The translations under genes were made by a program, and so were the position numbers. This document shows positions 10,714-38,468 of a stretch of DNA of 64,000 nucleotides, piece after piece. The stretch spans positions 62,001 to 126,000 of the forward strand of contig NZ_BCWQ01000005.1 in NCBI RefSeq assembly GCF_001592285.1, given 5' to 3'. Origin of the DNA: Hydrogenophaga pseudoflava NBRC 102511. GTDB lineage: Bacteria; Pseudomonadota; Gammaproteobacteria; Burkholderiales; Burkholderiaceae_C. The first letter of the stretch is position 1, and the number at the start of each line of letters is the position of its first letter. The notes below the pieces were generated by a model, which saw only the letters and a program-made list of their open reading frames with translations, ran no database searches and had not been told where the DNA came from.

Positions 10714-11508
10714 TCAGAAGGTGCCGTGGCGGCCTTCGCCGGCCGCGAAGCGCGCCGCACCCTCCAGCGCATCGGGGATGCGCGCCCGGCCGCGCTGCCA
10801 CTCCTGCTGCAGCGCCTCGCCCAGCGGCAGGTCCCACTGCGCATGGGCGCTCTCGCGGTCGGCGCGCATCGTGGCCTGCGGGAAGGCGGCGAGCTGCCGC
10901 GCCAGCGCGATGGCGGCTTCGCGCGCCTGCCCGGTCGGCACCACGCGGTTGGCCAGCCCCATCTGCAGCGCCTCGGCCGCCTCGACCTTGCGGCCGGTGA
11001 GTATCAGGTCCATCGCGTGGCCCATGCCGATCAGGCGCGGCAGGCGCACCGTGCCGCCGTCGATCAGCGGCACGCCGAAGCGGCGGCAGTAGACACCGAA
11101 GTAGGCATCGTCTTCCATCACCCGCATGTCGCACCACAGCGCCAGTTCCATGCCGCCCGCCACCGCCGCGCCGCTGACCGCCGCGATCACCGGCTTGGAC
11201 AGGCGCAGACGCGATGGCCCCATGGGGCCGATGACGCGGGTGTCGTCGCTGTCGAAATCAAGTCCCGCCAGGCCATCGGTCTGCCCGGACGCTGCCAGCC
11301 GTGCCCCATGCTGCAGGTCCCAGCCGGCGCAGAAGTGGCCATGCGCGCCATGGAACACCGCGACCTTGGCGGCCGGGTCGTCCTCGAAGGCGAGGAAGGC
11401 GGCGTGCAGCGCCTGTGCGGTGTCGCCATCGACCGCGTTGCGCACCTCGGGGCGGTTCAAGGTGACGACGTAGATGTCGTCGATGACTTCGGTGGTGACG
11501 GCGGTCAT
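10714..11508 (-). CDS. Enoyl-CoA hydratase/isomerase family protein
   Basis: A 264-residue crotonase. The oxyanion-hole segments are HGHFCAGWDL (about 56-65) and GAAVAGGMELALWCD (about 115-129), and RFGVPLIDGGTVRLPRLIG follows the usual layout. Members add water to, or isomerise, 2-enoyl-CoA thioesters. It overlaps the small AtuA-like gene by 4 bases (ATGA), so the three genes 13285-10714 form one coupled unit. This placement suggests a hydration or isomerisation step in the same branched or terpenoid acid pathway. The ATG at 11506-11508 was chosen over an in-frame start 15 bases upstream because of the overlap. Confidence 0.87.
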   Translation of the reverse strand: MTAVTTEVIDDIYVVTLNRPEVRNAVDGDTAQALHAAFLAFEDDPAAKVAVFHGAHGHFCAGWDLQHGARLAASGQTDGLAGLDFDSDDTRVIGPMGPSRLRLSKPVIAAVSGAAVAGGMELALWCDMRVMEDDAYFGVYCRRFGVPLIDGGTVRLPRLIGMGHAMDLILTGRKVEAAEALQMGLANRVVPTGQAREAAIALARQLAAFPQATMRADRESAHAQWDLPLGEALQQEWQRGRARIPDALEGAARFAAGEGRHGTF

Positions 11509-11888
11509 GCCTGCTCTCCCCACCAGCCCACACGCGGCTCATTCAATGCCGCCTGAAGCTCGTCTTCTGACACCTCGATCTCCATCCGCAACAGCGCCCC
11601 CGCCATCGACTTGCCCAGGTTGTCCAGCCGCAGGTTGCGGGCGCCGCCACCCTGCAGCGCGCCCTTGAGCACCAGCTTGAGCGCGAGGATGTTGGGCAGC
11701 GGCCAGCGGTCCAGCTCGCCCGGCAGCCAGGGCGCGAAGTGCTGCCGCACGCGCTCGGCCGTGACCTCGCGTTCGAGGATGCGGTAGCCCGCCTCGTTCC
11801 AGGCGAACAGCCCGAAGTCGACCCAGTCGGCCTTGTCGCCGCTGCGCGCATGGGCGATGCGGACCAGGGGTATGCGAACTCCGTTCAT
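11505..11888 (-). CDS. Small AtuA-related protein (C-terminal AtuA domain)
   Basis: A 127-residue protein matching the small domain that forms the C-terminus of long AtuA proteins (ferredoxin-like AtuA-associated fold). The opening VRIPLVRIAHARSGDKAD with the conserved GDKAD, and the later NILALKLVLKGALQGGGARNLRLDNLGKS, are typical of this family. Here it is encoded separately from the DUF1446 protein upstream and overlaps it by 4 bases, so the two probably act as subunits of one complex. Its biochemical role is not established; genetic context in Pseudomonas ties AtuA to growth on acyclic terpenes. It is translationally coupled to the crotonase gene downstream. Confidence 0.8.
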   Translation of the reverse strand: MNGVRIPLVRIAHARSGDKADWVDFGLFAWNEAGYRILEREVTAERVRQHFAPWLPGELDRWPLPNILALKLVLKGALQGGGARNLRLDNLGKSMAGALLRMEIEVSEDELQAALNEPRVGWWGEQA

Positions 11889-13285
11889 GCGGCACCTCCC
11901 AGCATCTCGACCCGCACATTGGGCTCCACCTCCGCCCGAGGGATCAGCGTCGGCCAGATGCCCAGCAGCTCGCTGGTGTTGTGCAGCCCGGTGAAGCCGC
12001 AGGTGTAGGCCGGGCCGCTGAGGCCGATCCAGGGGAACAGGCGGCCGAAGCCGTCGGCGGCGGCCTTCACGTTCGTGCGCAGCACCAGCCGCGTCCAGAC
12101 CTCGTTCATCTGGTTCAGCTGCTCCGGCGGCGGCAGCGGCGCCAGCGGGCCGTGCGCCGAGTTCAGGCCCGGGTATTCCACGTACAGCTCCTCGTGCGAC
12201 ACGCGCCGCTCGGCCAGCTGGGTGCGAATGGTGTCGATGGCGGCCTGCGCCTTGTCCCAGGCGTCGGGCCAGGAAAAGCCCCAGGTGACCTCGGCCCTGA
12301 AGCCGTCGCTGAACCCGGCGACCACCTTGAGCTGGTCGCCCGGTGCTGTGCCGCGCGCCCCGGTCAGCCGCACGCGGTCGTGGCCCTCGTCGTGCAGGTG
12401 GATGCCGCCCATGTCCAGCACCACGTCGGGCGAGCGGTAGGCGTGCGGGTCGTGCACCTCGTACAGCAGCTGCTGGCGCACGGTGTCGAAGTTGACGCGC
12501 CCGCCCGTGCCCGGCGCCTTGGTGATGAGGGCCGTGCCGTCGTCCCACACCTCGGCAATGGGAAAACCGATGTGCGCCAGATCGGGGATGGCCTTCCAGG
12601 CCTCCTGGCTGCCGAAGTTGCCGCCGCTGCCCTGGCCCGAACATTCGAGCAGGTGGCCCACGGTGAGGCCCTGCGCCAGCCGGTCGAGACCGGCGGCGTC
12701 GGTGGCCTTCAGGTCCCAGCCCAGGTGGTGGGCGATGGGGCCGAGGAACAGCGCGGCGTCGGCCACGCGGCCGGTGATCACGATGTCCGCGCCCCGGTCC
12801 AGCGCCTGCACGATGGGCGCCGCGCCCAGGTAGGCGTTGCCGAACACCAGCCGCTCGCGCACCGCCGACACCGGCTCGCCGCTGAACAGGTGGGCCAGCG
12901 CCGCGTCGGGCACCGACGCGTCGAGCAGGCGCGGCAGCACGTCGTCCCCGGTCACCACCGCGATGCGCGGCGCCATGCCCTTGGCCGCCAGCGCGGCCTG
13001 CACCGCCTGCGCAGCCCCCAGGGGGTTGAGGCCACCCGCGTTGCAGACGAAGCGCACGCCGCGCGCCCGCATCAGCGGCCACAGCCGCAGCAGCATGGGC
13101 ACGACATCGCGCGCGTAGCCCAGCGACGGGTCGCGCTGCCGGTCTTTCTGCAGGATGGCCAGGGTGAGTTCGGCCAGGTGGTCGCTGGCGATGAACTGCA
13201 CATCGCCACGTTCGATGCTGGCGACCACGGGCTCCCAGTGGTCGCCATAAAAGCCGAGACCGGCGCCGATGCGGATGGACTTCAT
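11885..13285 (-). CDS. AtuA-like acyclic terpene utilisation protein (DUF1446)
   Basis: A 466-residue DUF1446 protein, the main domain of AtuA. Recognisable segments are IGAGLGFYGDHWEP at the N-terminus, SDHLAELTLAIL, FVCNAGGLNP, ITGRVADAALFLGP and ECSGQGSGGNFG. In Pseudomonas, AtuA is a single longer protein (about 590 residues from memory) needed for citronellol and geraniol use, with an unknown reaction; here the C-terminal part is a separate gene. It heads a three-gene overlapping operon with the small AtuA-like protein and a crotonase. A palindrome shared with the atuR-type promoter lies 32-48 bases upstream of the ATG, pointing to common control. Confidence 0.85.
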   Translation of the reverse strand: MKSIRIGAGLGFYGDHWEPVVASIERGDVQFIASDHLAELTLAILQKDRQRDPSLGYARDVVPMLLRLWPLMRARGVRFVCNAGGLNPLGAAQAVQAALAAKGMAPRIAVVTGDDVLPRLLDASVPDAALAHLFSGEPVSAVRERLVFGNAYLGAAPIVQALDRGADIVITGRVADAALFLGPIAHHLGWDLKATDAAGLDRLAQGLTVGHLLECSGQGSGGNFGSQEAWKAIPDLAHIGFPIAEVWDDGTALITKAPGTGGRVNFDTVRQQLLYEVHDPHAYRSPDVVLDMGGIHLHDEGHDRVRLTGARGTAPGDQLKVVAGFSDGFRAEVTWGFSWPDAWDKAQAAIDTIRTQLAERRVSHEELYVEYPGLNSAHGPLAPLPPPEQLNQMNEVWTRLVLRTNVKAAADGFGRLFPWIGLSGPAYTCGFTGLHNTSELLGIWPTLIPRAEVEPNVRVEMLGGAA

Positions 13286-13316
13286 GCGGCCAGCATACGG
13301 GCACTCCCTATTTTTG

Positions 13317-13333
13317 CAAAGCGATTGCTTGCT
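13317..13333. promoter_or_regulatory. Palindromic operator shared with the atuR-type promoter
   Basis: On the minus strand this site reads AGCAAGCAATCGCTTTG. The same 17 bases with one change occur at 38452-38468 upstream of the TetR regulator of the carboxylase operon. The core is a near-perfect palindrome (AAGCRATTGCTT). It lies between the divergent AtuA-like and livH genes, 32 bases from the AtuA-like ATG, and overlaps a TTGCAA-N17-ATAAGG promoter-like pair pointing to livH. It is a likely TetR-repressor binding site; the binding protein is inferred. Confidence 0.65.
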
Positions 13334-13492
13334 GAAAATAAGGCGCAGAAAAACTGCCGCCTGCGCGACTCGGGCTCGGGTCTACCCTGACGCCGGTTTC
13401 AGGCAAGGCCGATATAAAACCCGCACCACAGCTGGACCCTGCGCCACAGCATTTGCAGCGCCCTGTGTCCACAACAACAAAGGAGACAGTGC

Positions 13493-14368
13493 GTGCAACT
13501 GCTGCAACTGCTGATCGGCGGTGTGGCCCAGGGATGCATCTACGGACTCATTGCCCTGGGCTTCGTGCTGATCTACAAGGCCACCGAGACGGTGAGCTTC
13601 GCGCAGGGGGACCTGATGATGGTCGGCGCCTTCGGTGGCCTGCTCACCATGACCCTGCTGGGGTTTCCCTTCTGGGTCTCGGTGCTGGCGGCCGTCATCG
13701 GCATGGGCCTGTTCGGCGTGCTGCTCGAACGCATGGTGATCCGCCCCATCCTGGGCCAGCCGGCGTTCTCCATCGTGATGCTCACCATCGGCGTGGGCTA
13801 CGTGCTGCGCGGCGTGATCACCATGATCCCCAACATCGGCACCGACACGCACTCGCTGGCCGTGCCCTACGCGGGCGAGGTGCTGAACATGGGCGGCCTG
13901 GTGCTGGCGGCCGAGCAGCTGGTGATCATCGGCGTGACCGCGGTGCTCTGCGGCGGCCTGTTCGCCATGTTCAAGTACAGCAAGCTGGGCATCGCCATGC
14001 AGGCCTCGTCGCAGAACCAGCTGGCGGCCTACTACATGGGCATCCCGGTCAAGCGGCTCAATGGCCTGGTCTGGGGCCTGGCGGCCGGTGTGGCGGCCAT
14101 CGCCGGCCTGCTGCTGGCGCCGATCACTTTCGTGCACGCCAACATGGGCTTCATCGGCCTCAAGGCCTTTCCGGCCGCGGTGGTGGGCGGCTTTGGCAGC
14201 CTGCCCGGCGCCATCGTCGGCGGCCTGGTGATCGGCATCGTGGAGGCGCTCTCGGGCTTCTACCTGCCCGAAGGTTTCAAGGACATCGCGCCCTACATCG
14301 TGGTGCTGCTGATGCTGGTGCTCAAGCCGAACGGCCTGTTCGGCGAGAAGCTGCGCAAAAAGGTCTGA
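13493..14368 (+). CDS. LIV-type ABC transporter permease (LivH-like)
   Basis: A 291-residue inner-membrane permease of the branched-chain amino acid/LIV family with about eight hydrophobic helices. The start LLQLLIGGVAQGCIYGLIALGFVLI and the motif PAAVVGGFGSLPGAIVGGLVIGI are typical of LivH. GTG at 13493 is used, preceded by a good AAAGGAGA ribosome site at 13480-13487. It opens a six-gene operon (livH-livM-livG-livF-ligase-binding protein). The substrate need not be an amino acid: LIV systems in this group also import aromatic, dicarboxylic or branched acids, and the enclosed acyl-CoA ligase suggests an organic acid. Confidence 0.9.
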   Translation: MQLLQLLIGGVAQGCIYGLIALGFVLIYKATETVSFAQGDLMMVGAFGGLLTMTLLGFPFWVSVLAAVIGMGLFGVLLERMVIRPILGQPAFSIVMLTIGVGYVLRGVITMIPNIGTDTHSLAVPYAGEVLNMGGLVLAAEQLVIIGVTAVLCGGLFAMFKYSKLGIAMQASSQNQLAAYYMGIPVKRLNGLVWGLAAGVAAIAGLLLAPITFVHANMGFIGLKAFPAAVVGGFGSLPGAIVGGLVIGIVEALSGFYLPEGFKDIAPYIVVLLMLVLKPNGLFGEKLRKKV

Positions 14369-14372: not shown

Positions 14373-15449
14373 ATGCGTTTCATTTTCAAGACCGACTACG
14401 ACCAGGACATCCGGCTGGCCAAACACGGCGGCCATGTGTTCTGGTACAGCCTGCTGGGCCTGTTCCTCGCGGTGGCGCCCTGGGCCCTGCCCGAGTACTG
14501 GCTGGCGCAACTCACCTTCGTGCTGATCTACGCCATCGTCGGTCTGGGCCTGATGCTGCTGGCCGGTTTCACCGGCCTGTTCTCGCTCGGCCACGCGGCC
14601 TTCCTCGGCGTCGGCGCCTACACCGAGGCGGTGCTCACCAACGCGGGCTGGCCCTTCCCTGTCTCCATCGCCTGTGCCGGCCTGCTCTCGGCCGCGGTGG
14701 GCATGGTGGTGGGCCTGCCGGCGCTGCGCGTCAAGGGCATCTACCTGGGCATGGCCACGCTGGCCTTCGGTTTCATCGTCGAAGAAGGCTTGGCGCGCTG
14801 GGAGCACGTGACCGGCGGCAACGCCGGCCTGGTGGTCAACCCGCCGGCCATCGGCGGCTGGACCATCGACTCCACCGAAGGCTTCTACTTCCTCTGCCTG
14901 GTGCTCTGCGTGGGCGCCACGCTGGCCATCGTCAACCTGCTGCGCGCGCCCACCGGCCGCGCCTTCGTGGCCATCCGCGACTCCGAGATCTCGGCGCAGA
15001 GCATGGGCATCCACCTGGCGCGCTACAAGACGCTGAGCTTCGCCTTGTCGGCCGCGCTGGCCGGCATCGGCGGCGCGCTGTACGCGCACAAGATCCAGTT
15101 CCTCTCGCCCGACCAGTTCTCCATCATCCAGTCCATCGACCTGCTGCTGATGGTGGTGATTGGCGGGCTGGGCTCGATCCACGGCGCCTTCCTGGGCGCG
15201 ATGTTCCTGATCGTGATGCCGCAGCTGATCGCCCTCGCCAAGGACTTCCTGCCCGAGGCCATCGGCCAGTCCACCGGCCTGCAGGGCACGGTCTACGGCG
15301 CGGTGCTGATCGCCTTCGTGCTGTTCGAGCCCATGGGGCTGTATGGCCGCTGGCTCAAGGTCCGCACCTGGTTCCAGCTGTTCCCGTTCTACCGCAAGGG
15401 CATGTTCAAGCGGCAGAAGTCGTTCCAGAAATCGGACCGTCTGAAATGA
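14373..15449 (+). CDS. LIV-type ABC transporter permease (LivM-like)
   Basis: A 358-residue second permease of the LIV-type importer with about ten hydrophobic helices. It has the LivM signature GLGLMLLAGFTGLFSLGHAAFLGVGAYT (about residues 50-77) and a later VIGGLGSIHGAFLGA loop that contacts the ATPases. It pairs with the LivH-like protein to form the membrane channel. A ribosome site is not obvious and the start lies 4 bases after livH, so translation is probably coupled. Its stop overlaps the livG-like start in ATGA. Confidence 0.9.
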   Translation: MRFIFKTDYDQDIRLAKHGGHVFWYSLLGLFLAVAPWALPEYWLAQLTFVLIYAIVGLGLMLLAGFTGLFSLGHAAFLGVGAYTEAVLTNAGWPFPVSIACAGLLSAAVGMVVGLPALRVKGIYLGMATLAFGFIVEEGLARWEHVTGGNAGLVVNPPAIGGWTIDSTEGFYFLCLVLCVGATLAIVNLLRAPTGRAFVAIRDSEISAQSMGIHLARYKTLSFALSAALAGIGGALYAHKIQFLSPDQFSIIQSIDLLLMVVIGGLGSIHGAFLGAMFLIVMPQLIALAKDFLPEAIGQSTGLQGTVYGAVLIAFVLFEPMGLYGRWLKVRTWFQLFPFYRKGMFKRQKSFQKSDRLK

Positions 15450-16285
15450 GCGCCATGAACGACGACATCCTCCTCTCGGCCCGGGACCTCAGCGTGCGCT
15501 TCGGCGGCGTGCTGGCGGTCAACAAGGTGAGCTTCGACGTCAGGAAGGGCGAGGTGTTCACCCTCATCGGCCCCAACGGCGCGGGCAAGACCACGGTGTT
15601 CAACCTGATCAGCCGCATCTACACGCCCACCAGCGGCGAGATCCACTTCGCCAGCCACCAGGGGCCGCTGAAGCTGACCGACCTGCCGCCGCACAAGGTG
15701 GCCGGCCTGGGCATCGCACGCACCTTCCAGAACATCGAGTTGTTCGAGCACGCCACGGTGCTGCAGAACCTGCTGATCGGCCGCCACACGCACCGGCAGA
15801 CCGGGCTGTGGAGCGAGCTGCTCTTCACCGGCAAGACCCGCGCCGCCGAGATCGCCGCGCGCGAGAAGGTGGAGCAGGTGATCGACTTCCTCGACCTGCA
15901 GCACCACCGCGAGTCGATGGTGGCCGGCCTGCCGTATGGCGTGCGCAAGGTGGTGGAGCTGGCGCGCGCGCTGTGCACCGAACCGCGCCTGCTGCTGCTG
16001 GACGAACCGTCGTCGGGCCTGAACGTGGAGGAAACCGAGGACATGGCGTTCTGGATCAGCGACATCAAGAACGAGCTGGGCGTGACGGTGCTGATGGTCG
16101 AACACGACATGACCCTCGTGTCCAAGGTGTCCGACCGCGTGCTGGCCATGAGCATGGGCGCCGAGCTGGCCACCGGCACGCCGGCCGAGGTGCAGAGCCA
16201 CCCCGGCGTGATCGAGGCCTACCTCGGCACGGTGGACGACGTGTCCAGCCTGCGCCGCGAGAACCATGTGAGGGTGGCGGCATGA
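15446..16285 (+). CDS. LIV-type ABC transporter ATPase (LivG-like)
   Basis: A 279-residue cytosolic ATPase with Walker A GPNGAGKTT, Walker B LLLLDEPSSGLN and switch histidine in MVEHDM. The degenerate signature (AGLPYGVRKVVELAR) and the insertion IARTFQNIELFEHATVLQN are typical of LivG. It powers the importer with the LivF-like ATPase. It overlaps livM by 4 bases and the livF-like gene by 4 bases. The Q-loop region is longer than in LivF, with HTHRQTGLWSELLFTGKTR, as usual for the LivG group. Confidence 0.92.
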   Translation: MSAMNDDILLSARDLSVRFGGVLAVNKVSFDVRKGEVFTLIGPNGAGKTTVFNLISRIYTPTSGEIHFASHQGPLKLTDLPPHKVAGLGIARTFQNIELFEHATVLQNLLIGRHTHRQTGLWSELLFTGKTRAAEIAAREKVEQVIDFLDLQHHRESMVAGLPYGVRKVVELARALCTEPRLLLLDEPSSGLNVEETEDMAFWISDIKNELGVTVLMVEHDMTLVSKVSDRVLAMSMGAELATGTPAEVQSHPGVIEAYLGTVDDVSSLRRENHVRVAA

Positions 16286-17070
16286 CGGCCCCGGTCACCG
16301 ACAACGCGGTGCTCAAGCTCCTCAACGTCGAGAGCGCCTACGGCCCCATCAAGGCCATCCGCGGCGTGAGCCTGCAGGTGCGGCGCGGCGAGATCGCCAC
16401 CGTGCTGGGCAGCAACGGCGCCGGCAAGACCACCATCCTCAAGACCATCAGCGGCATCATCGACCCGCGCAAGGGCAGCATCGAATTCAAGGGCAACGAC
16501 ATCACCGCGCAGGACCCGGCGCTGATCGTGCAGCAGGGGCTGATGCACGTGCCCGAAGGCCGCGAGGTGTTTCCGCTGCTCTCGGTGCGCGACAACCTGC
16601 TCATGGGCGCCTACACCCGCAGCGACCGCGACGGCGTGGCGCGGGACATGGAGCTGGTCTTCAACTACTTCCCGATCCTGCGCGAGCGTGCTGCGCAGGA
16701 CGCCGGACTGCTCTCGGGCGGCCAGCAGCAGATGCTGGCGATCAGCCGCGCGCTGATGGCCAACCCCGACCTGATCCTGCTCGACGAGCCCAGCCTCGGT
16801 CTCTCGCCCAAGCTGACCAAGGAAATCTTCGAGATCGTGGTGCGCATCAACCGCGAGCGCGGCACCACCATCCTGCTGGTGGAGCAGAACGCCAACATGG
16901 CGCTCAACGCGTCCGATTACGGCTATGTGCTGGAGAACGGACGCATCGTGATGGAAGACACCTGCGCCCGCCTGCGCGAGAAGGACGACATCAAGGAGTT
17001 CTACCTCGGCATGAAGGAAGCCGGCGTGCGCGCCGACCGCCGCTGGAAAAAGAAGAAGAACTGGAGGTGA
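16282..17070 (+). CDS. LIV-type ABC transporter ATPase (LivF-like)
   Basis: A 262-residue second ATPase with Walker A GSNGAGKTT, signature LSGGQQQM, Walker B LILLDEPSLGLSP and LVEQN as the switch motif; VPEGREVFPLLSVRDNL is the LivF hallmark. The frame stays open upstream, but the ATG at 16282 overlaps the livG stop in ATGA and gives the family N-terminus (LKLLNVESAYGPIKAI). The C-terminus is unusually basic (RADRRWKKKKNWR) and extends a little beyond the usual end of about 235 residues. The ligase gene starts 4 bases downstream. Confidence 0.92.
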   Translation: MTAPVTDNAVLKLLNVESAYGPIKAIRGVSLQVRRGEIATVLGSNGAGKTTILKTISGIIDPRKGSIEFKGNDITAQDPALIVQQGLMHVPEGREVFPLLSVRDNLLMGAYTRSDRDGVARDMELVFNYFPILRERAAQDAGLLSGGQQQMLAISRALMANPDLILLDEPSLGLSPKLTKEIFEIVVRINRERGTTILLVEQNANMALNASDYGYVLENGRIVMEDTCARLREKDDIKEFYLGMKEAGVRADRRWKKKKNWR

Positions 17071-20666: not shown

Positions 20667-23575
<2,909 letters not shown>

Positions 23576-23588
<13 letters not shown>

Positions 23589-26317: not shown

Positions 26318-26319
26318 CC

Positions 26320-26655: not shown

Positions 26656-26699
26656 CCACGCGACCACACACCGCCCGGCAGGCCACGAAAGACGCACCC

Positions 26700-27320: not shown

Positions 27321-27361
27321 CGAATCTTTCTCATCCTGCTTCGGGCGCAGCACCGACGGCC

Positions 27362-27757: not shown

Positions 27758-28011
27758 CGCACGGCCTGCGCCCGGAATGCCCGAACAGGCCAATGACCCG
27801 ACAGCGCTGCCCGTGGCTGGCGGCGCTCCCGACCGGCACCGCGGGTGGATGAAACACCAGCTTTGACAATGGCGCCGACTCAGGCATGCTCGACATCGTT
27901 TGACGCGGCTCAAGAAACGCCGGCGCCGCCGGGTGGATGCACGCAGCATGCGGACCGCCATCACGAGGTCCGACGGATTGGGAACGACAGCCGAGAAGGA
28001 AGGTGCAAGGC

Positions 28012-28332: not shown

Positions 28333-28512
28333 ACGTCGTGCGCGCGAGCAGCGTGAGGGAGGGCAGGGGTGGACAAAAGCACACGATGAAACCTCCTGGG
28401 TGGTACCCGCGCCGGTCTTCTCTGGCACCTGGATGTTTGCCATCCGCATGGTCGTGGGCAAGGGCGGGCAGGCGCCTGTGCCTGGATGCCTGATTTCTGC
28501 AGAGAGGAAACC

Positions 28513-30150: not shown

Positions 30151-31313
30151 AGTCCGGATTGTCGCGCGGCGAGTTCTTTCATGATTTCTTCGGCGCCGCC
30201 GCCGATCATCATGACCTTGACCTCGCGGTAGATGCGTTCGCTGACGGTGCCGCGCATGTAGCCCATGCCGCCGAGGATCTGCACCGCGGCGTCGGCGCAG
30301 AACTGCATGGCCTGCGTGGCGTGGTTCTTGAGCAGGCAGACATGGCTGACCCAGTCCGGTCCCTGGTCGCCCGCGTCGGCGCGCGCGGTGACGGCGTCCA
30401 CCCAGGCCCGGGTGGATTCGATGCGCGTGCGCATGTCCATGAGCTTGTGGCGGATGACCTGGCGTTCGATGAGCGCGGCGCCAAAGGTCTGACGCTGGCG
30501 CGCCCAGTCCAGCGCCTCGTCGTAGCAGGCCTGTGCAAAGCCCAGCGCCATCGCGCTCATGGCCAGGCGCTCGCCGTTGAAGTTGCCCATGATCATGCGA
30601 AAGCCCGCGCCCTCTTCGCCCAGGCGGTATCGCACCGGCACGCGCACACCATCGAAGCGCAGGTGCGCGGTGTCAGAGCAGTGCCAGCCCATCTTCTGCA
30701 GCGCGCTGCGCGAGACGCCAGGCCGGTCCATGGGCACCACCACCATGCTGATGCCGCTGGCGCCCTTGTTGCCAGCATCGGTGCGAACGGCGAGCGCGAG
30801 CCAGTCGCAGCGCAGGCCGGAGGTGATGAAGACCTTCTCGCCGTCGATCACGTACTCGTCGCCCTCGCGCCGCGCGGTGGTGCGCAGCGCGGCCACGTCG
30901 GATCCACCGCCAGGTTCGGTGATGCCCAGCGCCGCGATCTGCTCGCCGCGCAGCACGGGCGGCACCACCTCGGCCTGCAGCTCGGGCGCGCCATGCGCCA
31001 GCACCGGCGGCAGGCCGATGTTCAGCGAGAACAGGCTGGCCATGAGGCCACCGCTGCTGCCGTGGCGGGCCAGGGTCTGCGACAGCGCGTTGCGCGCGCG
31101 CCAGGGCGCGGGCGTGCCGCCCAGATGCTCGGGGTAGCCCAGGCCGAGCAGGCCGAGGTCGGCGGCTTCGCGGTACAGCGCGCGCGGAATCTCGCCAGCG
31201 GCCTCCCAGGCGTCGAGGTTCGGGCGCACCCGCTCCAGTGCAAACCGGCGCACGGTATCGACCAGCGCCTCCAGGTCGGCGGCGTCGAAGTCGCTCGAAG
31301 TGTCGGTGCTCAT
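30147..31313 (-). CDS. Acyl-CoA dehydrogenase (second in atu-like operon)
   Basis: A 388-residue FAD acyl-CoA dehydrogenase. ITEPGGGSDVAALRT (about 129-143) and the GEKVFITSG strand mark the FAD and substrate site, and GGMGYMRGTVSERIYREVK with GGGAEEIMKEL marks the C-terminal domain; the glutamate in GGGAEE is the expected base or its neighbour. It differs from the AtuD-like enzyme of the same operon, so two different desaturation steps are likely. The start at 31313 overlaps the carboxylase alpha gene in ATGA, which settles it against a longer open frame. No second dehydrogenase follows atuF in the Pseudomonas order. Confidence 0.87.
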   Translation of the reverse strand: MSTDTSSDFDAADLEALVDTVRRFALERVRPNLDAWEAAGEIPRALYREAADLGLLGLGYPEHLGGTPAPWRARNALSQTLARHGSSGGLMASLFSLNIGLPPVLAHGAPELQAEVVPPVLRGEQIAALGITEPGGGSDVAALRTTARREGDEYVIDGEKVFITSGLRCDWLALAVRTDAGNKGASGISMVVVPMDRPGVSRSALQKMGWHCSDTAHLRFDGVRVPVRYRLGEEGAGFRMIMGNFNGERLAMSAMALGFAQACYDEALDWARQRQTFGAALIERQVIRHKLMDMRTRIESTRAWVDAVTARADAGDQGPDWVSHVCLLKNHATQAMQFCADAAVQILGGMGYMRGTVSERIYREVKVMMIGGGAEEIMKELAARQSGL

Positions 31314-33232
31314 GCGCCCTCTTCCGAAAAGACCAGCAGCACCTGTGCCGGTACCAGCTGCTGCCCCGCCACCACGGTCACGCCGGACACGGTTGCGTCG
31401 CGCGGTGCGGCGATCTGGTGTTCGATCTTCATGCTCTCGATGGTCAGCAGCACCTGCCCGCGCGCCACGCGCTGGCCGGGCTGCACCATGAGCGACACCA
31501 GCTTGCCGTTGAAGGGCGCGCGCAGTTCGCGCGCCGCGGGGCCCTGGCCACCGCTCAGCGCGGCGGACAGGCTCAGGTCCTGCAGGTGCAGGTCGTGGGC
31601 ACCCCAGCGCACATGGCAATGGCCGTCGGCGTGGCGCACCACCGCGGTGGGCTGCGCGACGCCATCGAGCGCCACGGTGACCTTGCCGATGTGTGCGCTG
31701 TACCCGCGCTCGCCAGCATGCACCTGCAACGCCCCGCGGCCGAGTTCGCGCACACCCAGGTCCAGCGTGGTCTCTCCGAGCTTCACGCGCAGCGGCCGCA
31801 CAAACGGGCTGGGCAGATCGGCGCCCGTGCGGCCCAGCCAGGTCGCCGCCAGCGCGGCGGCCACACAGGCCCCGTGCGGCGGCTGGATCGCCTCGCGCAG
31901 CCTGTCGCCCTGCTCCGCGAGGAAGGGGATGGTGGCCTCGCCCGCACCAAACACCGGATGGCGCAGGCAGGCCGCCAGGAAGGCGCGGTTGCTGGGCAGG
32001 CCGAGCAGCACCGTGTCGTCGAGCGCCTGCGCGAGTTGGGCGATGGCCCCGCCGCGGGTCGGCGCGTGGGCGATCAGCTTGCCCAGCATGGCGTCGTAGT
32101 GCGGCGTGACCACCGAGCCGTCTTCGAGCGCGTGGTCGAAGCGCAGGCCGTCGCTCAGCGGTGATTCGGCGAAACGCTGCACCGTGCCGGCGTGCGGGGT
32201 GAAGTGTTCGTCTTCGGCGCAGAGGCGGACTTCAATGGCATGACCCTGGAGCTGCACCTTGTCCTGTGTCAACGGCAGCGGCTCGCCACGCGCCACACGG
32301 AGTTGCCATTCGACCAGGTCCAACCCGGTGAGCATTTCGGTGACGGGGTGCTCGACCTGCAGCCGGGTGTTCATCTCCATCAGGAAGAACTGGTCGCCGT
32401 CGAGCAAAAACTCCACCGTCCCCGCGCCCACATAGCCCGCGCCCTGCACCAGCGCCACCGCGCAGCGGCCCAGCTCGGCGCGCAGCTCGGGCGAGACCGC
32501 CGGGCTGGGCGACTCCTCGATGATCTTCTGGTGGCGGCGCTGCACCGAACAGTCGCGCTCGCCCAGGTGGATGCAGTGGCCGTGGGCGTCGGCGAACACC
32601 TGCACCTCGACGTGGCGCGGGTTGAGCAGCGCACGTTCGATCAGCAGGTCGCCATTGCCGAAACCGGCCAGGGCTTCGGACCGCGCGCTCTGCAGCGCGG
32701 CGGGCAGTTGCTCGGCGCTGTGCACGAGGCGCATGCCGCGCCCGCCGCCACCGGCCACGGCCTTGACCATGACCGGGTAGCCGATGCGCTGCGCCTCGGC
32801 CGCGAAGGTCTCGTCGCGCTGGTCGTCGCCGAAGCAGCCCGGCAGCACCGGCACACCCTGTGCCAGCGCCACCGCCTTGGCGGCGGACTTGCTGCCCAGC
32901 GCGCGGATGGCGGCGGGCAGCGGTCCGACCCAGGTGAGGCCGGCGTCGATGACGGCCTGCGCGAAGTCGGCGTTTTCGCTGAGGAAGCCGTAGCCGGGGT
33001 GCACCGCGTCGGCGCCGCTGGCGCGCGCGGCGCCGATGAGTTTGTCGATGTGCAAATAGCTGTCGGCCGAGGCGGTGCCGCCCAGCGCCACGGCCGTGTC
33101 GGCTTCGCGCACGTGCAAGGCGCCGCGATCGGCGTCGGAAAACACCGCCACGGTCGCGACGCCCATGCGGCGCGCGGTGCGGAGGATGCGGCGCGCGATC
33201 TCGCCGCGGTTGGCGATCAGCAGGCGCCTCAT
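31310..33232 (-). CDS. atuF: Acyl-CoA carboxylase biotin-containing alpha subunit (AtuF-like)
   Basis: A 640-residue subunit with three parts: biotin carboxylase (about 1-450; NRGEIARRILRTAR, the ATP-grasp loop KAVAGGGGRGMR, EMNTRLQVEHPVTE), a linker domain, and a biotin-carrier domain whose lysine is K602 in ESMKIEHQ. It carboxylates biotin for the partner beta subunit. The order after atuB, C, D and E matches the geranyl-CoA carboxylase alpha subunit AtuF (about 660 residues); a 3-methylcrotonyl-CoA carboxylase alpha (LiuD) cannot be excluded from this subunit alone. It overlaps its neighbours by 4 bases on both sides. Confidence 0.85.
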   Translation of the reverse strand: MRRLLIANRGEIARRILRTARRMGVATVAVFSDADRGALHVREADTAVALGGTASADSYLHIDKLIGAARASGADAVHPGYGFLSENADFAQAVIDAGLTWVGPLPAAIRALGSKSAAKAVALAQGVPVLPGCFGDDQRDETFAAEAQRIGYPVMVKAVAGGGGRGMRLVHSAEQLPAALQSARSEALAGFGNGDLLIERALLNPRHVEVQVFADAHGHCIHLGERDCSVQRRHQKIIEESPSPAVSPELRAELGRCAVALVQGAGYVGAGTVEFLLDGDQFFLMEMNTRLQVEHPVTEMLTGLDLVEWQLRVARGEPLPLTQDKVQLQGHAIEVRLCAEDEHFTPHAGTVQRFAESPLSDGLRFDHALEDGSVVTPHYDAMLGKLIAHAPTRGGAIAQLAQALDDTVLLGLPSNRAFLAACLRHPVFGAGEATIPFLAEQGDRLREAIQPPHGACVAAALAATWLGRTGADLPSPFVRPLRVKLGETTLDLGVRELGRGALQVHAGERGYSAHIGKVTVALDGVAQPTAVVRHADGHCHVRWGAHDLHLQDLSLSAALSGGQGPAARELRAPFNGKLVSLMVQPGQRVARGQVLLTIESMKIEHQIAAPRDATVSGVTVVAGQQLVPAQVLLVFSEEGA

Positions 33233-34026
33233 GCGCCCCCCTCCACCCACGGTGCGGGCTGCTTGCGCACAAAGGCCTTGAGGCCGGCAGCCGCCTCCGG
33301 CCCGCGCAGGGCCGTCGCGAAAGCGATGGCGGCTTCGTCGCGCAGGTCGGGCAGCGGTCCGTGCAGGCGGCGCAGCAGCTGCTTGGTCTCGGCCAGGGCA
33401 CCGGGTGCGGCCAGGCGGTGGCGCGCCAGCGTGTCGGTCAGCGCCGCTTCCATCTCGCCGTCGGCCACCACGTCGTTGACCAGGCCCAGGTCGCACGCTT
33501 CGCTGGCACTGAAGTGCCGGCCCGAGAGCAGGCAGTCGCGTGCGGCGCGGTCGCCCAGGCGCCGCCAGACAAAGGGCGCGATCTGCGCCGGTGGCAGGCC
33601 CAGCGTGACCTCGGGCGTGGCGAACACCGAGCGCTGCGTCGCCAGCACCACATCGCCACAGCAGGCCAGGCCGAAGCCGCCGCCCATGGCCGGCCCGTCC
33701 ACCGCCACCACCAGCAGCTGCGGCAGTTCGGTCAGCGCGTGCAGCACGTCGCCGAACGCGCGGTTGGCGTCGATCAACGGGTCGTGTGCGCCCTCGGCGA
33801 GTGGCTGGCCGATGGCGCTGGCGAAGTGGCCCAGGCTGCCGCCCGCGCAGAAGGCGCCACTCCCGCCGGTGAGCACCACCGTGCGCAGGCTGTCGTCGGC
33901 CTTGGCCCGCAGGCAGGCCTCGAACAGGGCGACCACCATGCCGTCGGACAGCGCGTTGCGCGTGGCCTGGTCATCGAGCGTCCAGCGCTCGGTGTCGCCC
34001 TGCCGCACCACCAGAAAGTTGCTCAT
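33229..34026 (-). CDS. atuE: Enoyl-CoA hydratase (AtuE-like)
   Basis: A 265-residue crotonase, equal in length to AtuE as I recall it. Oxyanion-hole segments are SGAFCAGGSLGHF (about 56-68) and GPAMGGGFGLACCGDVVLA (about 112-130). In the acyclic terpene route AtuE hydrates isohexenylglutaconyl-CoA, the product of geranyl-CoA carboxylase; the position between the AtuD-like dehydrogenase and the carboxylase alpha gene supports this. A methylglutaconyl-CoA hydratase role (LiuC) is the alternative. The ATG at 34024-34026 lies 11 bases after atuD, and the stop overlaps atuF by 4 bases. Confidence 0.8.
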   Translation of the reverse strand: MSNFLVVRQGDTERWTLDDQATRNALSDGMVVALFEACLRAKADDSLRTVVLTGGSGAFCAGGSLGHFASAIGQPLAEGAHDPLIDANRAFGDVLHALTELPQLLVVAVDGPAMGGGFGLACCGDVVLATQRSVFATPEVTLGLPPAQIAPFVWRRLGDRAARDCLLSGRHFSASEACDLGLVNDVVADGEMEAALTDTLARHRLAAPGALAETKQLLRRLHGPLPDLRDEAAIAFATALRGPEAAAGLKAFVRKQPAPWVEGGA

Positions 34027-34037: not shown

Positions 34038-35210
34038 TCAGTGCGCCGGGCGTTTGGCGATGCCCATCATCTTGGTGAGGATGCCGAGCATCACCTCGTC
34101 GGCCCCGCCGCCGATGGAGGCCAGGCGCCCGTCGCGGTACATGCGCGAGACCTTGTTGTCCCACGTGAAGCCCATGCCGCCCCAGAACTGCAGGCAGGTG
34201 TCGGGCACCTGGCGGTTCAGGCGCCCGGCCTTGAGCTTGGCCATGGTGGCCCACTCGGTCACGTCCTCGCCGGCCACGTAGTGCTCGCAGGCCTGGTAGG
34301 TCAGCGCGCGCAGGCTCTCGACCTCGGTCTTGAGCTCGGCCAGCTTGAACTGCACCCACTGCTGGTCGGCCAGCGAGGCGCCAAACAGCTGGCGCTCCTG
34401 CGCGTACTCCACCGTCCACTGGATGCAGTTGCTCAGGCTTTGCAGCGTGCTGGCCGCGCACCACAGGCGCTCCTCCTGGAACTGCTGCATCTGGTAGATG
34501 AAGCCCGCGCCCTCGGCGCCGATGCGGTAGCGCTGCGGCACGCGCACCTCGTCGAAGAACAGCAGGCCGGTGTCGCTGCTGTTCATGCCGATTTTTTTGA
34601 TCTTCTGGCCGACCTCGAAGCCTTTGACGGTCTTGCCGTTCTCGCGCAGCGGCACCATGACCAGGCTCTTGTTCTTGTGCGCGGGGCCGTCGCTGGTGTT
34701 GACCAGCATGCACATCCAGTCGGCCTGCAGGCTGTTGGTGATCCACATCTTCTGGCCGCTGATGACGTAGTCGTCGCCGTCCTTGCGGGCCACGGTCTTG
34801 ATGGCCGACACGTCACTGCCCGCGCCGGGCTCGCTCACGCCGATGCAGCCGACCATGTCGCCCGCGATGGCGGGCGCGAGGAACTGCGCCTTGAGTTCTT
34901 CGCTGCCGAAACGCGCCAGGGCCGGTGTGCACATGTCGGTCTGCACGCCGATGGCCATGGGCACGCCGCCGCAGTGGATGTGGCCCAGCGTCTCGGCCAT
35001 GGCCACGCTGTAGGAGTAGTCCAGCCCCATGCCGCCGTAGGCCTCGGGTTTGGTCAGGCCCAGCAGGCCGAGCTGGCCCATCTGTTTGAAGACCTCGTGC
35101 GCCGGGAAGATCTCGGCCGCTTCCCACTCGTCCACGTGCGGGTTGATGTGCTCGTCGATGAAGCGCTTGAGGGTCTTCTGGATCTCGCGGTGTTCGTGGG
35201 TGAACTGCAT
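34038..35210 (-). CDS. atuD: Acyl-CoA dehydrogenase (AtuD-like)
   Basis: A 390-residue FAD acyl-CoA dehydrogenase. VSEPGAGSDVSAIKTVARKDGDDYVISGQKMWITN covers the FAD/substrate strand in two familiar motifs, and FWGGMGFTWDNKVSRMYRDGR with IGGGADEVML ends the catalytic domain (glutamate near residue 372). In Pseudomonas AtuD desaturates citronellyl-CoA to geranyl-CoA, the substrate of AtuC/F; the operon place (just after the carboxylase beta gene) is the same here. It starts 34 bases after the beta gene with GGAGACA before the ATG. Confidence 0.82.
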   Translation of the reverse strand: MQFTHEHREIQKTLKRFIDEHINPHVDEWEAAEIFPAHEVFKQMGQLGLLGLTKPEAYGGMGLDYSYSVAMAETLGHIHCGGVPMAIGVQTDMCTPALARFGSEELKAQFLAPAIAGDMVGCIGVSEPGAGSDVSAIKTVARKDGDDYVISGQKMWITNSLQADWMCMLVNTSDGPAHKNKSLVMVPLRENGKTVKGFEVGQKIKKIGMNSSDTGLLFFDEVRVPQRYRIGAEGAGFIYQMQQFQEERLWCAASTLQSLSNCIQWTVEYAQERQLFGASLADQQWVQFKLAELKTEVESLRALTYQACEHYVAGEDVTEWATMAKLKAGRLNRQVPDTCLQFWGGMGFTWDNKVSRMYRDGRLASIGGGADEVMLGILTKMMGIAKRPAH

Positions 35211-35244: not shown

Positions 35245-36864
35245 TCACATGCGCGCGACGCCGAACGGCATGGGCCTCGGCTGGCGCAGCGCCGCCTCGG
35301 CCACGGTGTCCAGGCAGAAGCGGAGCACGGCGCGGGTGTCGCGCGGGTCGATCACGCCGTCGTCCAGCACCAGGCCGCTCGTGTAGAACGCGTCGGCCTG
35401 CGACTCGAACTTCTGCACGATGGCCTCGTACTTCGCCTTCATCTGCGCCTGCACCTCGGGCGTGTCGGTGGGGATGCCTTTGCGCGCCATGCCGGCCTCG
35501 GCCACGATCTGCATGGTCCTGGCGGCCTGCTCGCCGCCCATGACCGCGGTGCGCGCGTTGGGCCAGCTGAACAGGAAGCGCGGCGCGTAACCGCGGCCGC
35601 ACATGCCGTAGTTGCCCGCACCGAAACTGGCGCCGCACTGGATGGTGATCTGCGGCACCGTCGCATTCGTCACCGCCTGGATCATCTTGCTGCCGTGCTT
35701 GATCATCCCGGCCTGCTCGCTGTCCTTGCCGACCATGTAGCCGGTGGTGTTCTGCAGGTAGACGATGGGGTGGCCGAGCTGGCACATCCACTGGATGAAG
35801 TGCGTGGCCTTGTTCGCGCCGGCCACGTCGATGGGACCGTTGTTGCTGATGATGCCGACCGCGTGGCCGCCGATGTGCGCCTGGGCGCAGACCGTGGCGG
35901 CGCCGTAGAGCGCCTTGAACTCAAGGATGTCGGAGCCATCGGTGATGCGGGCCATGACCTCGCGCATGTCCACCGGTTCGCGGTGGTGCGCGGGCATCAG
36001 GGACAGCAGGTCCTCGGCGTCTAAACGGGGTTCGGGCGCCGTCGGTCGCTGAGGCATCTGCCAGCCGGTGCGCGCCACGATGTCGCGCGCCAGGCCCAGG
36101 GCCTCGCGGTCGTCTTCGGCCAGGTGCTCGCCCAGTCCCGACACCGTGGTGTGCATCTCGGCACCGCCCAACTCCTCTTCGGTGGCGATCTCGCCGGTGG
36201 CGGCCTTGAGCAGCGGCGGCCCGGCGAGAAAGGCGCGCGAGCGGCCGCGCACCATGATCACGATGTCCGAGAGGCCCGGCATGTAGGCGCCACCGGCGGT
36301 GCCCGACCCGTGCTGCACCGTGATGACCGGCAGGCCCGCCGCCGAGAGGCGCGCGAGGTTGCGGAACAGACCGCCGCCGAGCACGAAGCCCTCGACCTGG
36401 TACTTCATCAGGTTCGCGCCCGCGCTCTCGACCAGGTGCACGAAAGGCAGCCGGTTCTCCAGCGCCATCTCCTGCACCCGCAGGATCTTCTCCAGCCCGC
36501 GCGCCTGGATCGCACCGGCCTCGATGCCCGAGTCGCTGGCCACCACCATGCAGCGCACGCCGCCAATGAAGCCGATGCCAGCCAGCATGCCGCCGCCGGG
36601 CACGGACTTCTCCGGGTCCTTCGTGTCCTGCAGGAAACCGGCCAGCGAACACAGCGGCAGGTACGGCGCGCCCGGGTCCAGCAGCAGGCCCACGCGCTCG
36701 CGCGGCAGCAGCTGCCCGCGCTTGTGGAACACCGGCGCCGACAGGGCCGAAGCGGCCGCGGCGCGGTCTTCCAGCGCCCGCAGCTGGGCGATGCGCGCCA
36801 GCAGGGCGTCGCGGCGCTGCGCGGCCTGTTCGCTGTGCGGGTTGAAATTCGACGCAAAGCTCAT
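35245..36864 (-). CDS. atuC: Acyl-CoA carboxylase beta subunit (AtuC-like)
   Basis: A 539-residue carboxyltransferase, the length of geranyl- and methylcrotonyl-CoA carboxylase beta subunits. The N-domain has FHKRGQLLPRERV and SVPGGGMLAGIG; GSGTAGGAYMPGLSD and FLAGPPLLKAATGE mark the acyl-CoA and biotin sites; ISNNGPIDVAGANK marks the C-domain. At residues 163-165 the sequence is GGG before LFRN, where MCC enzymes carry a bulky FGRIFF-type stretch. A Gly-for-Phe exchange is the published basis for geranyl-CoA over methylcrotonyl-CoA use, so this supports AtuC; a full alignment was not possible here. It overlaps the SDR gene by 4 bases. Confidence 0.85.
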   Translation of the reverse strand: MSFASNFNPHSEQAAQRRDALLARIAQLRALEDRAAAASALSAPVFHKRGQLLPRERVGLLLDPGAPYLPLCSLAGFLQDTKDPEKSVPGGGMLAGIGFIGGVRCMVVASDSGIEAGAIQARGLEKILRVQEMALENRLPFVHLVESAGANLMKYQVEGFVLGGGLFRNLARLSAAGLPVITVQHGSGTAGGAYMPGLSDIVIMVRGRSRAFLAGPPLLKAATGEIATEEELGGAEMHTTVSGLGEHLAEDDREALGLARDIVARTGWQMPQRPTAPEPRLDAEDLLSLMPAHHREPVDMREVMARITDGSDILEFKALYGAATVCAQAHIGGHAVGIISNNGPIDVAGANKATHFIQWMCQLGHPIVYLQNTTGYMVGKDSEQAGMIKHGSKMIQAVTNATVPQITIQCGASFGAGNYGMCGRGYAPRFLFSWPNARTAVMGGEQAARTMQIVAEAGMARKGIPTDTPEVQAQMKAKYEAIVQKFESQADAFYTSGLVLDDGVIDPRDTRAVLRFCLDTVAEAALRQPRPMPFGVARM

Positions 36865-37751
36865 GACTGGAACACCTTGGGCGTGACCGCGCGGTGGAAA
36901 CCGTCGAAAGGTTTCACCGCGTCGCGCTGCTGCACCTCGGCCGGTGCGGCGACCTGCCCCCAGCCCATGCGCACCTGGGGCCGTGCGCCGTCTACACGCA
37001 ACACCGTGCCGCTGATGAAGCTGGCCGCGGGCGAGAGCAGGAAGACGATGGCGGCCGAGGTCTCGGCCTCGTTGCCGAAGCGCCCCAGCGGCACGGTCTG
37101 GCGCATCTCACGCAGCATCGGCCCGGCCTCGGGCGGGTAGTGGTCCATGCCGCTGGAGGCGATGTAGCCCGGCGCGACCGCGTTCACGCGCACGCCGCTT
37201 TTCGCCCACTCCATCGCCGCGGTCTCGGTGAAGCTCACCATGCCCATGCGGGCGGCGCCGCTGTGGCCCATGCCGGGCATCGAACCCCACATGTCCGCGA
37301 CGATGTTCACGATGGCGCCGCCCTGCGCCTGCATGCTCTGCAGGTAGCACTCGCGCGCCACCAGGAAGCCACCGGTCAGGTTGGTGTCGATCACCGCCTG
37401 CCAGCCCTTGGCGCTGATCTTCTCCAGCGGGGTGATGTACTGGCCGCCGGCGTTGTTGACCAGGGCGTCGATGCGGCCATGCGCCTGCACCGCGTCGGCC
37501 ACCATGGCCTGCACGCCCGCCTCGTTGCGGATGTCGCAGACGTGGAAGCTGGCGCGCCCGCCGTCGTCGGCGATCTCGATGGCCGTGGCCTGCAGCTTCT
37601 CGGGGTTGCGGCCCACCAGCACCACCATGGCACCCAGCCGGGCCAGCTCGTGCGCGGTGCAGCGGCCGATGCCCGATCCGCCTCCGGTGACCATCACCAC
37701 TCGCCCGGCGAACAGGCCGTCGCGAAACACGGAACCATACCGTTTGCTCAT
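36861..37751 (-). CDS. atuB: Atypical SDR oxidoreductase (AtuB/PECR-like)
   Basis: A 296-residue Rossmann-fold reductase. The NADP-binding GGGSGIGR lies at about residues 23-30, and VNNAGGQYITP follows. The usual Tyr-xxx-Lys pair is missing: the segment reads GHSGAARMGM, so His and Arg occupy those places. The same HSGAAR pattern occurs in peroxisomal trans-2-enoyl-CoA reductase and related dienoyl-CoA reductases, so the substrate is probably a CoA thioester rather than an alcohol. In the Pseudomonas cluster AtuB occupies this place between atuR/A and atuC. It overlaps the TetR gene and the carboxylase beta gene by 4 bases each. Confidence 0.75.
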   Translation of the reverse strand: MSKRYGSVFRDGLFAGRVVMVTGGGSGIGRCTAHELARLGAMVVLVGRNPEKLQATAIEIADDGGRASFHVCDIRNEAGVQAMVADAVQAHGRIDALVNNAGGQYITPLEKISAKGWQAVIDTNLTGGFLVARECYLQSMQAQGGAIVNIVADMWGSMPGMGHSGAARMGMVSFTETAAMEWAKSGVRVNAVAPGYIASSGMDHYPPEAGPMLREMRQTVPLGRFGNEAETSAAIVFLLSPAASFISGTVLRVDGARPQVRMGWGQVAAPAEVQQRDAVKPFDGFHRAVTPKVFQS

Positions 37752-38419
37752 GCGCGCTCCTTCAGGAACAGGTGCAGCGCCGCCTCGGTCAGATCGTCGA
37801 GCGAAGACCGGCGCCCCGGCTCGAACCACTGCACCGCCCAGTTGAGCGCGCCGAAGATCATCAGCCGCGCCAGGCTCGGGTCGCCCTGCAGCTCGCCGCT
37901 GTCGTGCAGTGCCTGCAGCACCGGCACCCAGACGGCCTCGTACTCTCGCCGCAGCTCGTTGACCGCCTGGCGCTGCACCTCGGACAGCGAGCGCCACTCG
38001 TAGAGCATCACCGGGATGAAGTCGCTCTCTGCGCCCAGCAGCACCTCCAGGTGGTTGCGCACCAGCACGCGCAGGCACTCGCGCGCGCTCAGCGTCTGGC
38101 CCGCGGCGGCGGCCGCGTCGTGCATGGCACCGGCCTGGCGCCCGGTGGCGCGCTGCATGCCTTCAAGCATCACGGCCGCCAGCAGCGCCTCCTTGTTTTC
38201 AAAGTGGTAGAAGGGCGAGCCCGAGCGCATGCCCGCGGCGGCGGCGATGTCGCGCGTGCTCGTGGCGGCAAAGCCCTGCTGGCGGAACAGGCGGGCCGCG
38301 GCGCGCAGCAGGTCCTGGCGGCGGTTGCCGTCGTCGCGCTCGTCGGCGGTCTTGCGGGGGCGCCCGCGGGCGCGCCGGGGCGCCAGGTCTGGGCTGAGGT
38401 CGGGAGTGTCCGGTGTCAT
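37748..38419 (-). CDS. atuR: TetR-family regulator (AtuR-like)
   Basis: A 223-residue TetR-type repressor. The N-terminus is a basic arm (PRRARGRPRKTADER), followed by the helix-turn-helix (about 30-75; FAATSTRDIAAAAGMRSGSPFYHFENKEALL). The ligand domain is helical, with no clue to the inducer; acyl-CoA esters are usual for this context. It heads the eight-gene operon, and a palindrome 33 bases before its ATG recurs upstream of the AtuA-like and LIV genes, so it probably represses its own operon and that locus. The name AtuR rests on context. Confidence 0.72.
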   Translation of the reverse strand: MTPDTPDLSPDLAPRRARGRPRKTADERDDGNRRQDLLRAAARLFRQQGFAATSTRDIAAAAGMRSGSPFYHFENKEALLAAVMLEGMQRATGRQAGAMHDAAAAAGQTLSARECLRVLVRNHLEVLLGAESDFIPVMLYEWRSLSEVQRQAVNELRREYEAVWVPVLQALHDSGELQGDPSLARLMIFGALNWAVQWFEPGRRSSLDDLTEAALHLFLKERA

Positions 38420-38451
38420 GGGGAGGCACCTTAGCAGCGGCCTTTATTTTT

Positions 38452-38468
38452 AGCAAGCAATTGCTTTG
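38452..38468. promoter_or_regulatory. Palindromic operator upstream of the atuR-type gene
   Basis: AGCAAGCAATTGCTTTG contains the perfect 12-base palindrome AAGCAATTGCTT. It lies 33 bases upstream of the TetR ATG and 139 bases upstream of the divergent Na/Pi cotransporter gene. It matches 16 of 17 bases of the site at 13317-13333 (opposite strand), and the flanks are AT-rich in both. It is the likely binding site of the neighbouring TetR protein. Confidence 0.7.

Follow-up and report, generated by a model that had tools for sequence, protein, structure and literature searches.

Can a single repressor tie an ATP-binding cassette (ABC) importer of the leucine/isoleucine/valine (LIV) type to the breakdown of acyclic isoprenoid acids? 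The question is raised by a 64,000-nucleotide stretch of Hydrogenophaga pseudoflava NBRC 102511 (contig NZ_BCWQ01000005.1, positions 62,001 to 126,000), which was analysed as a whole and is called the window here. It carries an operon that begins with a TetR-type regulator gene and encodes a geranyl-coenzyme A (CoA) carboxylase-type enzyme (tetR-atuBCDEF-acad2), and a second locus in which a crotonase gene and an AtuA-like gene (ech-atuA) diverge from genes for the importer, an acyl-CoA ligase and a periplasmic binding protein (livHMGF-ligase-binding protein). An earlier note, made from the letters alone, had proposed that a common operator joins the two loci. We consider it likely that one AtuR-type TetR repressor governs three units, the importer among them, for the uptake and breakdown of isoprenoid acids.

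The 17-base site on which that proposal was built is indeed present twice, as CAAAGCGATTGCTTGCT at 13317-13333 (plus strand) and CAAAGCAATTGCTTGCT at 38452-38468 (minus strand), with a single difference between the copies (16/17). It lies 31 and 32 bases, respectively, from the leftward ATG of atuA (start 13285) and of tetR (start 38419). When up to three mismatches are allowed, the 17-mer matches only these two places in the window, and two or more matches were obtained in 1 of 100 shuffled sequences. Across the whole genome (4.5 Mb, 43 contigs), only the two window sites have fewer than three mismatches; with up to three there are 10 matches, compared with 7 for a reversed-pattern control. 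With up to two mismatches, 68 of 120 genomes of the family were matched, and 20 by the reversed control. By itself the 17-mer is of low specificity and suggestive only, and specificity is added by its flanks. The conserved unit is a 31-bp palindrome, ATTTTTACAAAGCAATTGCTTGCTAAAAATA, which has the 17-mer as its core and conserved AT-rich flanks. A matrix was built from the tetR-upstream sites of 28 other genomes, excluding the genome under study. It scored the two window operators at 59.5 and 53.6; the next-best other place in the window reached -6.2 (the same sites on the opposite strand or shifted not being counted), and twenty simulated 64-kb Markov sequences, scanned on one strand, gave a maximum of -7.9. 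Because likeness to the window 17-mer governed the choice of training sites, this test is more independent in the flanks. The two operators are 25.1 kb apart, and the convergent operons behind them end 10 kb from each other (at 20135 and 30147).

The operator is not confined to these two loci. The matrix scan gave a third site (C6:17638-17667, score 42.0), located on another contig between a leftward acyl-CoA dehydrogenase gene and a rightward operon for a thiolase (NF006090, above cut-off), a FadJ/FadB-type protein (below cut-off) and a FabG-like short-chain dehydrogenase/reductase (SDR). An extended pattern, at up to three mismatches, occurs at exactly three places in the genome and its reversed control at none; the pattern was drafted when the third site was already known, and its zero-mismatch match there is partly by design. 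Independent support for the third site comes from the thiolase genes of the family genomes: a site within 1.9 kb upstream of a close thiolase (identity of at least 71%; 37 of 51 rows used, 14 rows of 60-67% omitted) was found in 22 of 31 genomes with the TetR and in 0 of 6 without it. In three of those 22, the site is 1.3-1.7 kb from the thiolase with the dehydrogenase gene between. A regulon of only two loci was rejected on the strength of this operator at a beta-oxidation operon. A spread of motif copies over unrelated genes, which the earlier note had named as evidence against its proposal, was not seen, since the sole further extended site is the one just described.

If the palindrome is the operator of this TetR, the two are expected to occur together. 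The TetR was found in 38 of the 120 family genomes. Thirty orthologues (those of 40 TetR matches that have loci; identity of at least 54%) could be inspected, the one in the window included, and 29 have the operator upstream (at least 13/17 matches plus conserved AT-rich flanks). For the sole miss (G005, L061), the site stands instead before a neighbouring dehydrogenase/thiolase pair. Beside the ten remaining, distant TetR matches, a 17-mer match was found in six cases (G005, G062, G087, G090, G091, G100). The extended pattern occurs in 30 of 38 TetR-containing genomes versus 5 of 82 others, with 115 matches in total versus 9 for the reversed control. In each of the five genomes with the pattern and no TetR (G037, G044, G046, G080, G113) it matches once, on a single strand and with 2-3 mismatches, and the eight TetR-containing genomes without the pattern comprise seven with a TetR of 46-50% identity and one of 54% (G029). 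A chance palindrome was rejected because the operator is conserved and because both the matrix test and the extended pattern speak against it; the 17-mer alone would have been insufficient. Two other sites were recorded in relatives: an operator-like site (G027:C99:10862, L165/L123; matrix 37) that lies 10.8 kb from tetR and precedes a weak SDR-like match, and a weak site (G031:C10:294348, L011; matrix 22) with no regulon gene close by.

The company kept by the importer was assessed in the loci, up to 10 kb on each side (1.47 Mb), of the best 80 of 514 binding-protein relatives from an alignment scan; these come mostly from Hydrogenophaga, Polaromonas, Acidovorax, Limnohabitans, Rhodoferax, Curvibacter and other Burkholderiales. 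Genes of the carboxylase operon (atuB-F, acad2 or tetR, at 50% identity or more) flank the importer in 47 of the 80 loci, the atuA subtype found in the window in 40, ech in 51 and beta-oxidation genes in 18, and nine have none of the regulon genes. Sixty-one operators (matrix above 15) were found in 38 of the 80 loci, every one of them upstream of livH, tetR or acad3/thl and none elsewhere in the 1.47 Mb, so that copies at unrelated genes are missing among the relatives as well. A site is present at 33 of 65 testable livH genes, 15 of 17 tetR genes and 13 of 17 acad3 genes, and the reversed control gave 0 of 80. The gene order differs between groups. In Polaromonas, ech-atuA-[site]-livHMGF-ligase-binding protein is followed by acad2-atuFEDCB-tetR-[site], and Acidovorax-type loci read [site]-livHMGF-ligase-binding protein-[site]-dehydrogenase-thiolase-fadJ. 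Only 0.1-3.5 kb separate the importer and carboxylase operons of G114, which is of the same genus, and those of G025, G045 and G005. G029 has a site with the binding-protein gene on one side and tetR-atuA-atuBCDEF on the other. Among 300 genomes of the order, the binding protein occurs in at least 19, atuC in at least 18 and both in 13; the order- and class-wide scans score few candidates per genome, so these are lower bounds, and the atuC of G114 was missed although present. In the order outside the family, atu genes stand at 6 of 11 importer loci examined (L168, L169, L170, L174, L213, L214). These arrangements suggest that the geranyl-CoA-carboxylase operon and the genes for the LIV-type importer, the ligase and the binding protein belong together. 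Of the two-part pathway envisaged in the earlier note, the shared operator stands, and the regulation has firmer support than the note gave it; the loci number three, and a split pathway as a special design was rejected because the parts sit within a few kilobases of each other in G114, G025, G045, G005 and Polaromonas. The split in the window is a local interruption. The intervening region (20667-29160), between operons that are adjacent in relatives, contains Mrp-type Na+/H+ antiporter genes, a DUF2784 gene and a nitroreductase gene.

Several observations weigh against a regulon that includes the importer. The TATAAA box of the liv genes lies about 70 bp downstream of the window operator. 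No site over threshold was found in 19 of 40 atuA-livH pairs or at 32 of 65 livH genes, and in eight family genomes inspected by eye the atuA-livH interval has a site only in the genome under study and in G002, with none in G114 of the same genus. Four distant TetR matches (two in G056, and those of G067 and G079) have no 17-mer match nearby at up to two mismatches, and 9 of 31 TetR-containing genomes have no extended site at the thiolase. Five importer loci from the order outside the family (L173, L209, L211, L212, L215), some of them on short contigs, have no atu genes in the DNA examined. Near seven atuC clusters outside the order (L299-L305) there are no liv genes, and the importer would therefore not be essential to the pathway; carboxylase-side loci L172, L210, L306-L310 and L312 likewise have no such importer. 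The closest solved relatives of the binding protein are Leu/Ile/Val-binding proteins. Finally, the genomes are related, so p-values of the family-genome tests overstate independence.

The position of the operator bears on a rather unlikely alternative, in which the Hydrogenophaga operator controls ech-atuA only and the importer, with its own promoter and regulator, is close by incidentally. In the window the site is 24 bp from atuA and 152 bp from livH, and in Hydrogenophaga-type loci with a site the distances are 24-83 bp and 148-203 bp, respectively. The interval between operator and livH holds a conserved, promoter-like element, roughly ACAACCCCTAGCG ... TATAAA, which many relatives retain without the operator. 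In Polaromonas, by contrast, only 15-17 bp separate the end of the site from livH, as they do at 9 of the 12 Acidovorax-type loci (102-103 bp in L267, L277 and L281). Divergent tetR and livH genes enclose a 17-mer match, with 1-3 mismatches and unconserved flanks, in G005, G062, G087, G090 and G091. Sites in the atuA-livH interval also occur in several Hydrogenophaga and in Polaromonas. Thus, repression of the importer appears well supported for Polaromonas and the Acidovorax-type genera and is only likely for the window, because the liv genes there probably have a conserved promoter of their own, downstream of the operator; within the genus, direct control of livH seems less certain than that of atuA. 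As to the element itself, a GGGG(G)ACAACCCCTAGCG-type sequence, often with TATAAA, precedes livH in Hydrogenophaga, and in Limnohabitans loci it occurs without an exact TATAA (L222-L292 compared); Acidovorax-type loci have TCAGGGTTAGCCCCGAGTG in its place. It is possibly an activator site.

The substrate of the pathway can be approached through the carboxylase. AtuC scores 581 bits to the beta subunit of geranyl-CoA carboxylase (GCC; 5ikl) versus 461 to that of 3-methylcrotonyl-CoA carboxylase (MCC). According to excerpts of PMC4673880, Gly162 of GCC corresponds to Phe191 of MCC, where MCC also has a three-residue insertion. The Phe191 column was located by alignment; the chain numbering differs from that of PMC4673880. 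Glycine at this switch position and no insertion are found in the window AtuC (Gly163) and, once duplicates are removed, in all 57 sequences aligned. A paralogue in the same genome (contig C7, 46%) has the phenylalanine and the insertion, and is on that account MCC-like and fit for the Liu step; it is near none of the three operator places. For AtuF, the nearest PDB chain is MCC alpha, and both carboxylase-alpha domains are present, which does not imply geranyl-CoA specificity. The AtuE-like hydratase matches 4zu2 ('putative isohexenylglutaconyl-CoA hydratase') behind an unnamed hydratase, 4k3w, and its best NCBIfam model is below cut-off. The same regulon might serve another substrate, such as longer or different beta-methyl-branched acids (farnesoate, or acids derived from polyisoprene, from phytol or from isoprenoid side chains). 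What the carboxylase residue shows is just that acyl groups beyond C5 fit, and the regulon has a further dehydrogenase together with a beta-oxidation operon. This alternative is possible, if somewhat doubtful; the point that tells against it is that the solved enzyme nearest to AtuC is named a geranyl-CoA carboxylase, nothing else being specific.

The importer genes encode a pair of permeases, a pair of ATPases and a binding protein of type I (Peripla_BP_6). An ordinary branched-chain amino acid importer, co-regulated since leucine and terpenoid degradation meet at 3-methylcrotonyl-CoA, is quite improbable here. Such an importer would agree with the solved relatives of the binding protein given above, and the subunits match LIV and urea-importer models. 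However, the scores fall below the LIV model cut-offs for LivH (107/379), LivM (155/366), LivG (267/362) and the binding protein (104/477), the operon includes a CoA ligase gene, which amino acid uptake does not need, and the MCC-type paralogue is away from the operators. Moreover, Asp121 and Glu226 of LivJ, which we take to be the acidic residues that hold the amino group, are replaced: the Asp121 position is Tyr150 in 116 of 116 aligned binding proteins and the Glu226 position is Ser255 in 100 of 116. Arg133 (115 of 116) and Arg233 (116 of 116) are conserved. The acidic pair of LIV/HAAT binding proteins thus appears to be lost, and the Tyr/Ser replacements would fit an acid without an amino group, which they do not name. 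The closest relative among the best 80 of 514 is the binding protein of Hydrogenophaga flava (99%).

The sequence itself shows the operators and their conservation, the gene content and the specificity residue of the carboxylase. In the model that we infer from these, the TetR would bind the 31-bp palindrome and hold three units repressed. They are its own operon, the divergent ech-atuA and importer pair, and the acyl-CoA dehydrogenase gene with the thiolase-FadJ-SDR operon divergent from it. The LIV-type importer would take up a beta-methyl-branched isoprenoid acid of the citronellate/geranate type, which the ligase would convert to its CoA ester and a dehydrogenation to a geranoyl-type enoyl-CoA. 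AtuC/F would then carboxylate, AtuE hydrate and AtuA release acetate, and thiolase and FadJ would shorten the remainder to 3-methylcrotonyl-CoA for the Liu pathway; the order of these steps is taken from parts of PMC4847356 and PMC4673880. Release of the TetR would probably be caused by an acyl-CoA intermediate. For the Comamonadaceae, a broader proposition, that a LIV-type ABC importer was recruited for dedicated, ligase-coupled isoprenoid-carboxylate uptake, with one AtuR-type repressor over uptake, carboxylation and beta-oxidation at three loci, seems to us evenly balanced. If true, the three operators form a directly testable regulon and a named candidate binding protein becomes available for ligand assays.

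Table 1 Genes and regulatory sites of the two loci in the window.
Feature	Position	Strand	Remark
ech, crotonase/enoyl-CoA hydratase family	10714..11508	-	NF006108, 383 bits, cut-off 273
AtuA small domain, own open reading frame	11505..11888	-	PF23544 (AtuA_ferredoxin)
AtuA large part, importer-linked subtype	11885..13285	-	PF07287, E 3e-128
Operator, 31 bp, between atuA and livH	13310..13340	+	matrix score 53.6
Likely liv promoter, separate from operator	13377..13420	+	TATAAA box with a conserved ACCCT-type element; comparison of intergenic regions by eye
livH-type permease	13493..14368	+	
livM-type permease	14373..15449	+	
livG-type ATPase	15455..16285	+	
livF-type ATPase	16282..17070	+	
AMP-forming acyl-CoA ligase	17075..18931	+	best NCBIfam FadD11, 422 bits, below cut-off 950
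Periplasmic binding protein, LIV type	18972..20135	+	Tyr, Ser at LivJ Asp121, Glu226
acad2, acyl-CoA dehydrogenase	30147..31313	-	
atuF, biotin carboxylase and biotin carrier (alpha subunit)	31310..33232	-	
atuE-like enoyl-CoA hydratase	33229..34026	-	second PDB match 4zu2
atuD, acyl-CoA dehydrogenase	34038..35210	-	
atuC, geranyl-CoA carboxylase-type beta subunit	35245..36864	-	Gly163, no MCC insertion
atuB, short-chain dehydrogenase/reductase	36861..37751	-	
tetR (AtuR-like), first gene of operon	37748..38419	-	TetR family; operator upstream of own gene
Operator, 31 bp, upstream of tetR	38445..38475	-	matrix score 59.5

The gene content is as the earlier note described it (Table 1), except that AtuA is split over two open reading frames, its C-terminal ferredoxin-like domain being separate. 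Both Pfam domains (PF07287, PF23544) place the protein in the AtuA family, and its enzymatic role is a predicted one. AtuA-family genes occur in 59 of the 120 family genomes, most at 35-45% identity and in genomes without the TetR as well. The subtype found here (at least 59% identity) occurs in 12 of 120, all with the TetR (hypergeometric 2.6e-7; genomes not independent). Its neighbour ech also adjoins livH in Acidovorax-type loci. At L167 (G000:C9:146000-165999) there is another AtuA-like gene (41%), which has a small domain to itself; its neighbours are FadJ-like, thiolase-like and SDR-like matches and matches to LIV-type ATPase. It marks a further acid-degradation cluster, with no operator match. 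On the other side of the tetR operator, a Na/Pi-cotransporter gene (38607-40193) runs away from it, with its start about 130 bp from the operator.

Among known systems, the Pseudomonas atuRABCDEFGH cluster is closest in content, with a TetR-type regulator gene and its upstream operator, an AtuA family protein, an SDR, a GCC-type carboxylase, an acyl-CoA dehydrogenase and a hydratase. The likeness of the regulator to AtuR lies in the TetR family and the operator upstream of its own gene. In contrast to the single contiguous Pseudomonas cluster, the genes here occupy three loci, with parts together in several relatives; AtuA is in two reading frames in the second operon, and no atuG or atuH was seen in the tetR operon, the ligase sitting in the importer operon (no direct AtuG/AtuH comparison being made). 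Importer, ligase, ech and the beta-oxidation operon all share the operator. LivJHMGF (LIV/HAAT) has the same two permeases, two ATPases and Peripla_BP_6 binding protein; the present system differs by its ligase gene, the replaced LivJ Asp121/Glu226, its atu neighbours and the TetR operator in about half of the loci. That the regulator is FadP, a published TetR that controls the degradation of fatty acids in Burkholderia, Ralstonia and Comamonadaceae, and its regulon one already described for fatty acids, is very unlikely as judged by the description of FadP: it does share the TetR type, the bacterial group and beta-oxidation genes such as those of the third locus, but the consulted sections of PMC5343134 give 17.9 genes per genome and, for 25 genomes together, 194 sites, or about 8 per genome versus 3 here, and the present TetR, found in 38 of the 120 family genomes, sits in a carboxylase operon. 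Searching paper titles and the starts of abstracts for a LIV-type importer tied to the acyclic terpene pathway gave none, which is weak evidence as subscription journals are mostly missing, and the available portion of PMC8637051 mentions neither transport nor uptake. For Castellaniella, PMC4109377, in its accessible part, reports highly up-regulated ABC transporter-associated proteins on phellandrene and no atu genes identified. Thauera linaloolentis, as presented in parts of PMC4847356, is a betaproteobacterium with scattered atu genes, an AtuR-like TetR and linalool-negative transporter mutants, no atu gene being hit among the mutants. Its transporters are discussed there under the export of toxic monoterpenes; if our reading is true, these mutants can be read anew. 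The present system would be a form of the known atu regulon that has an importer of its own.

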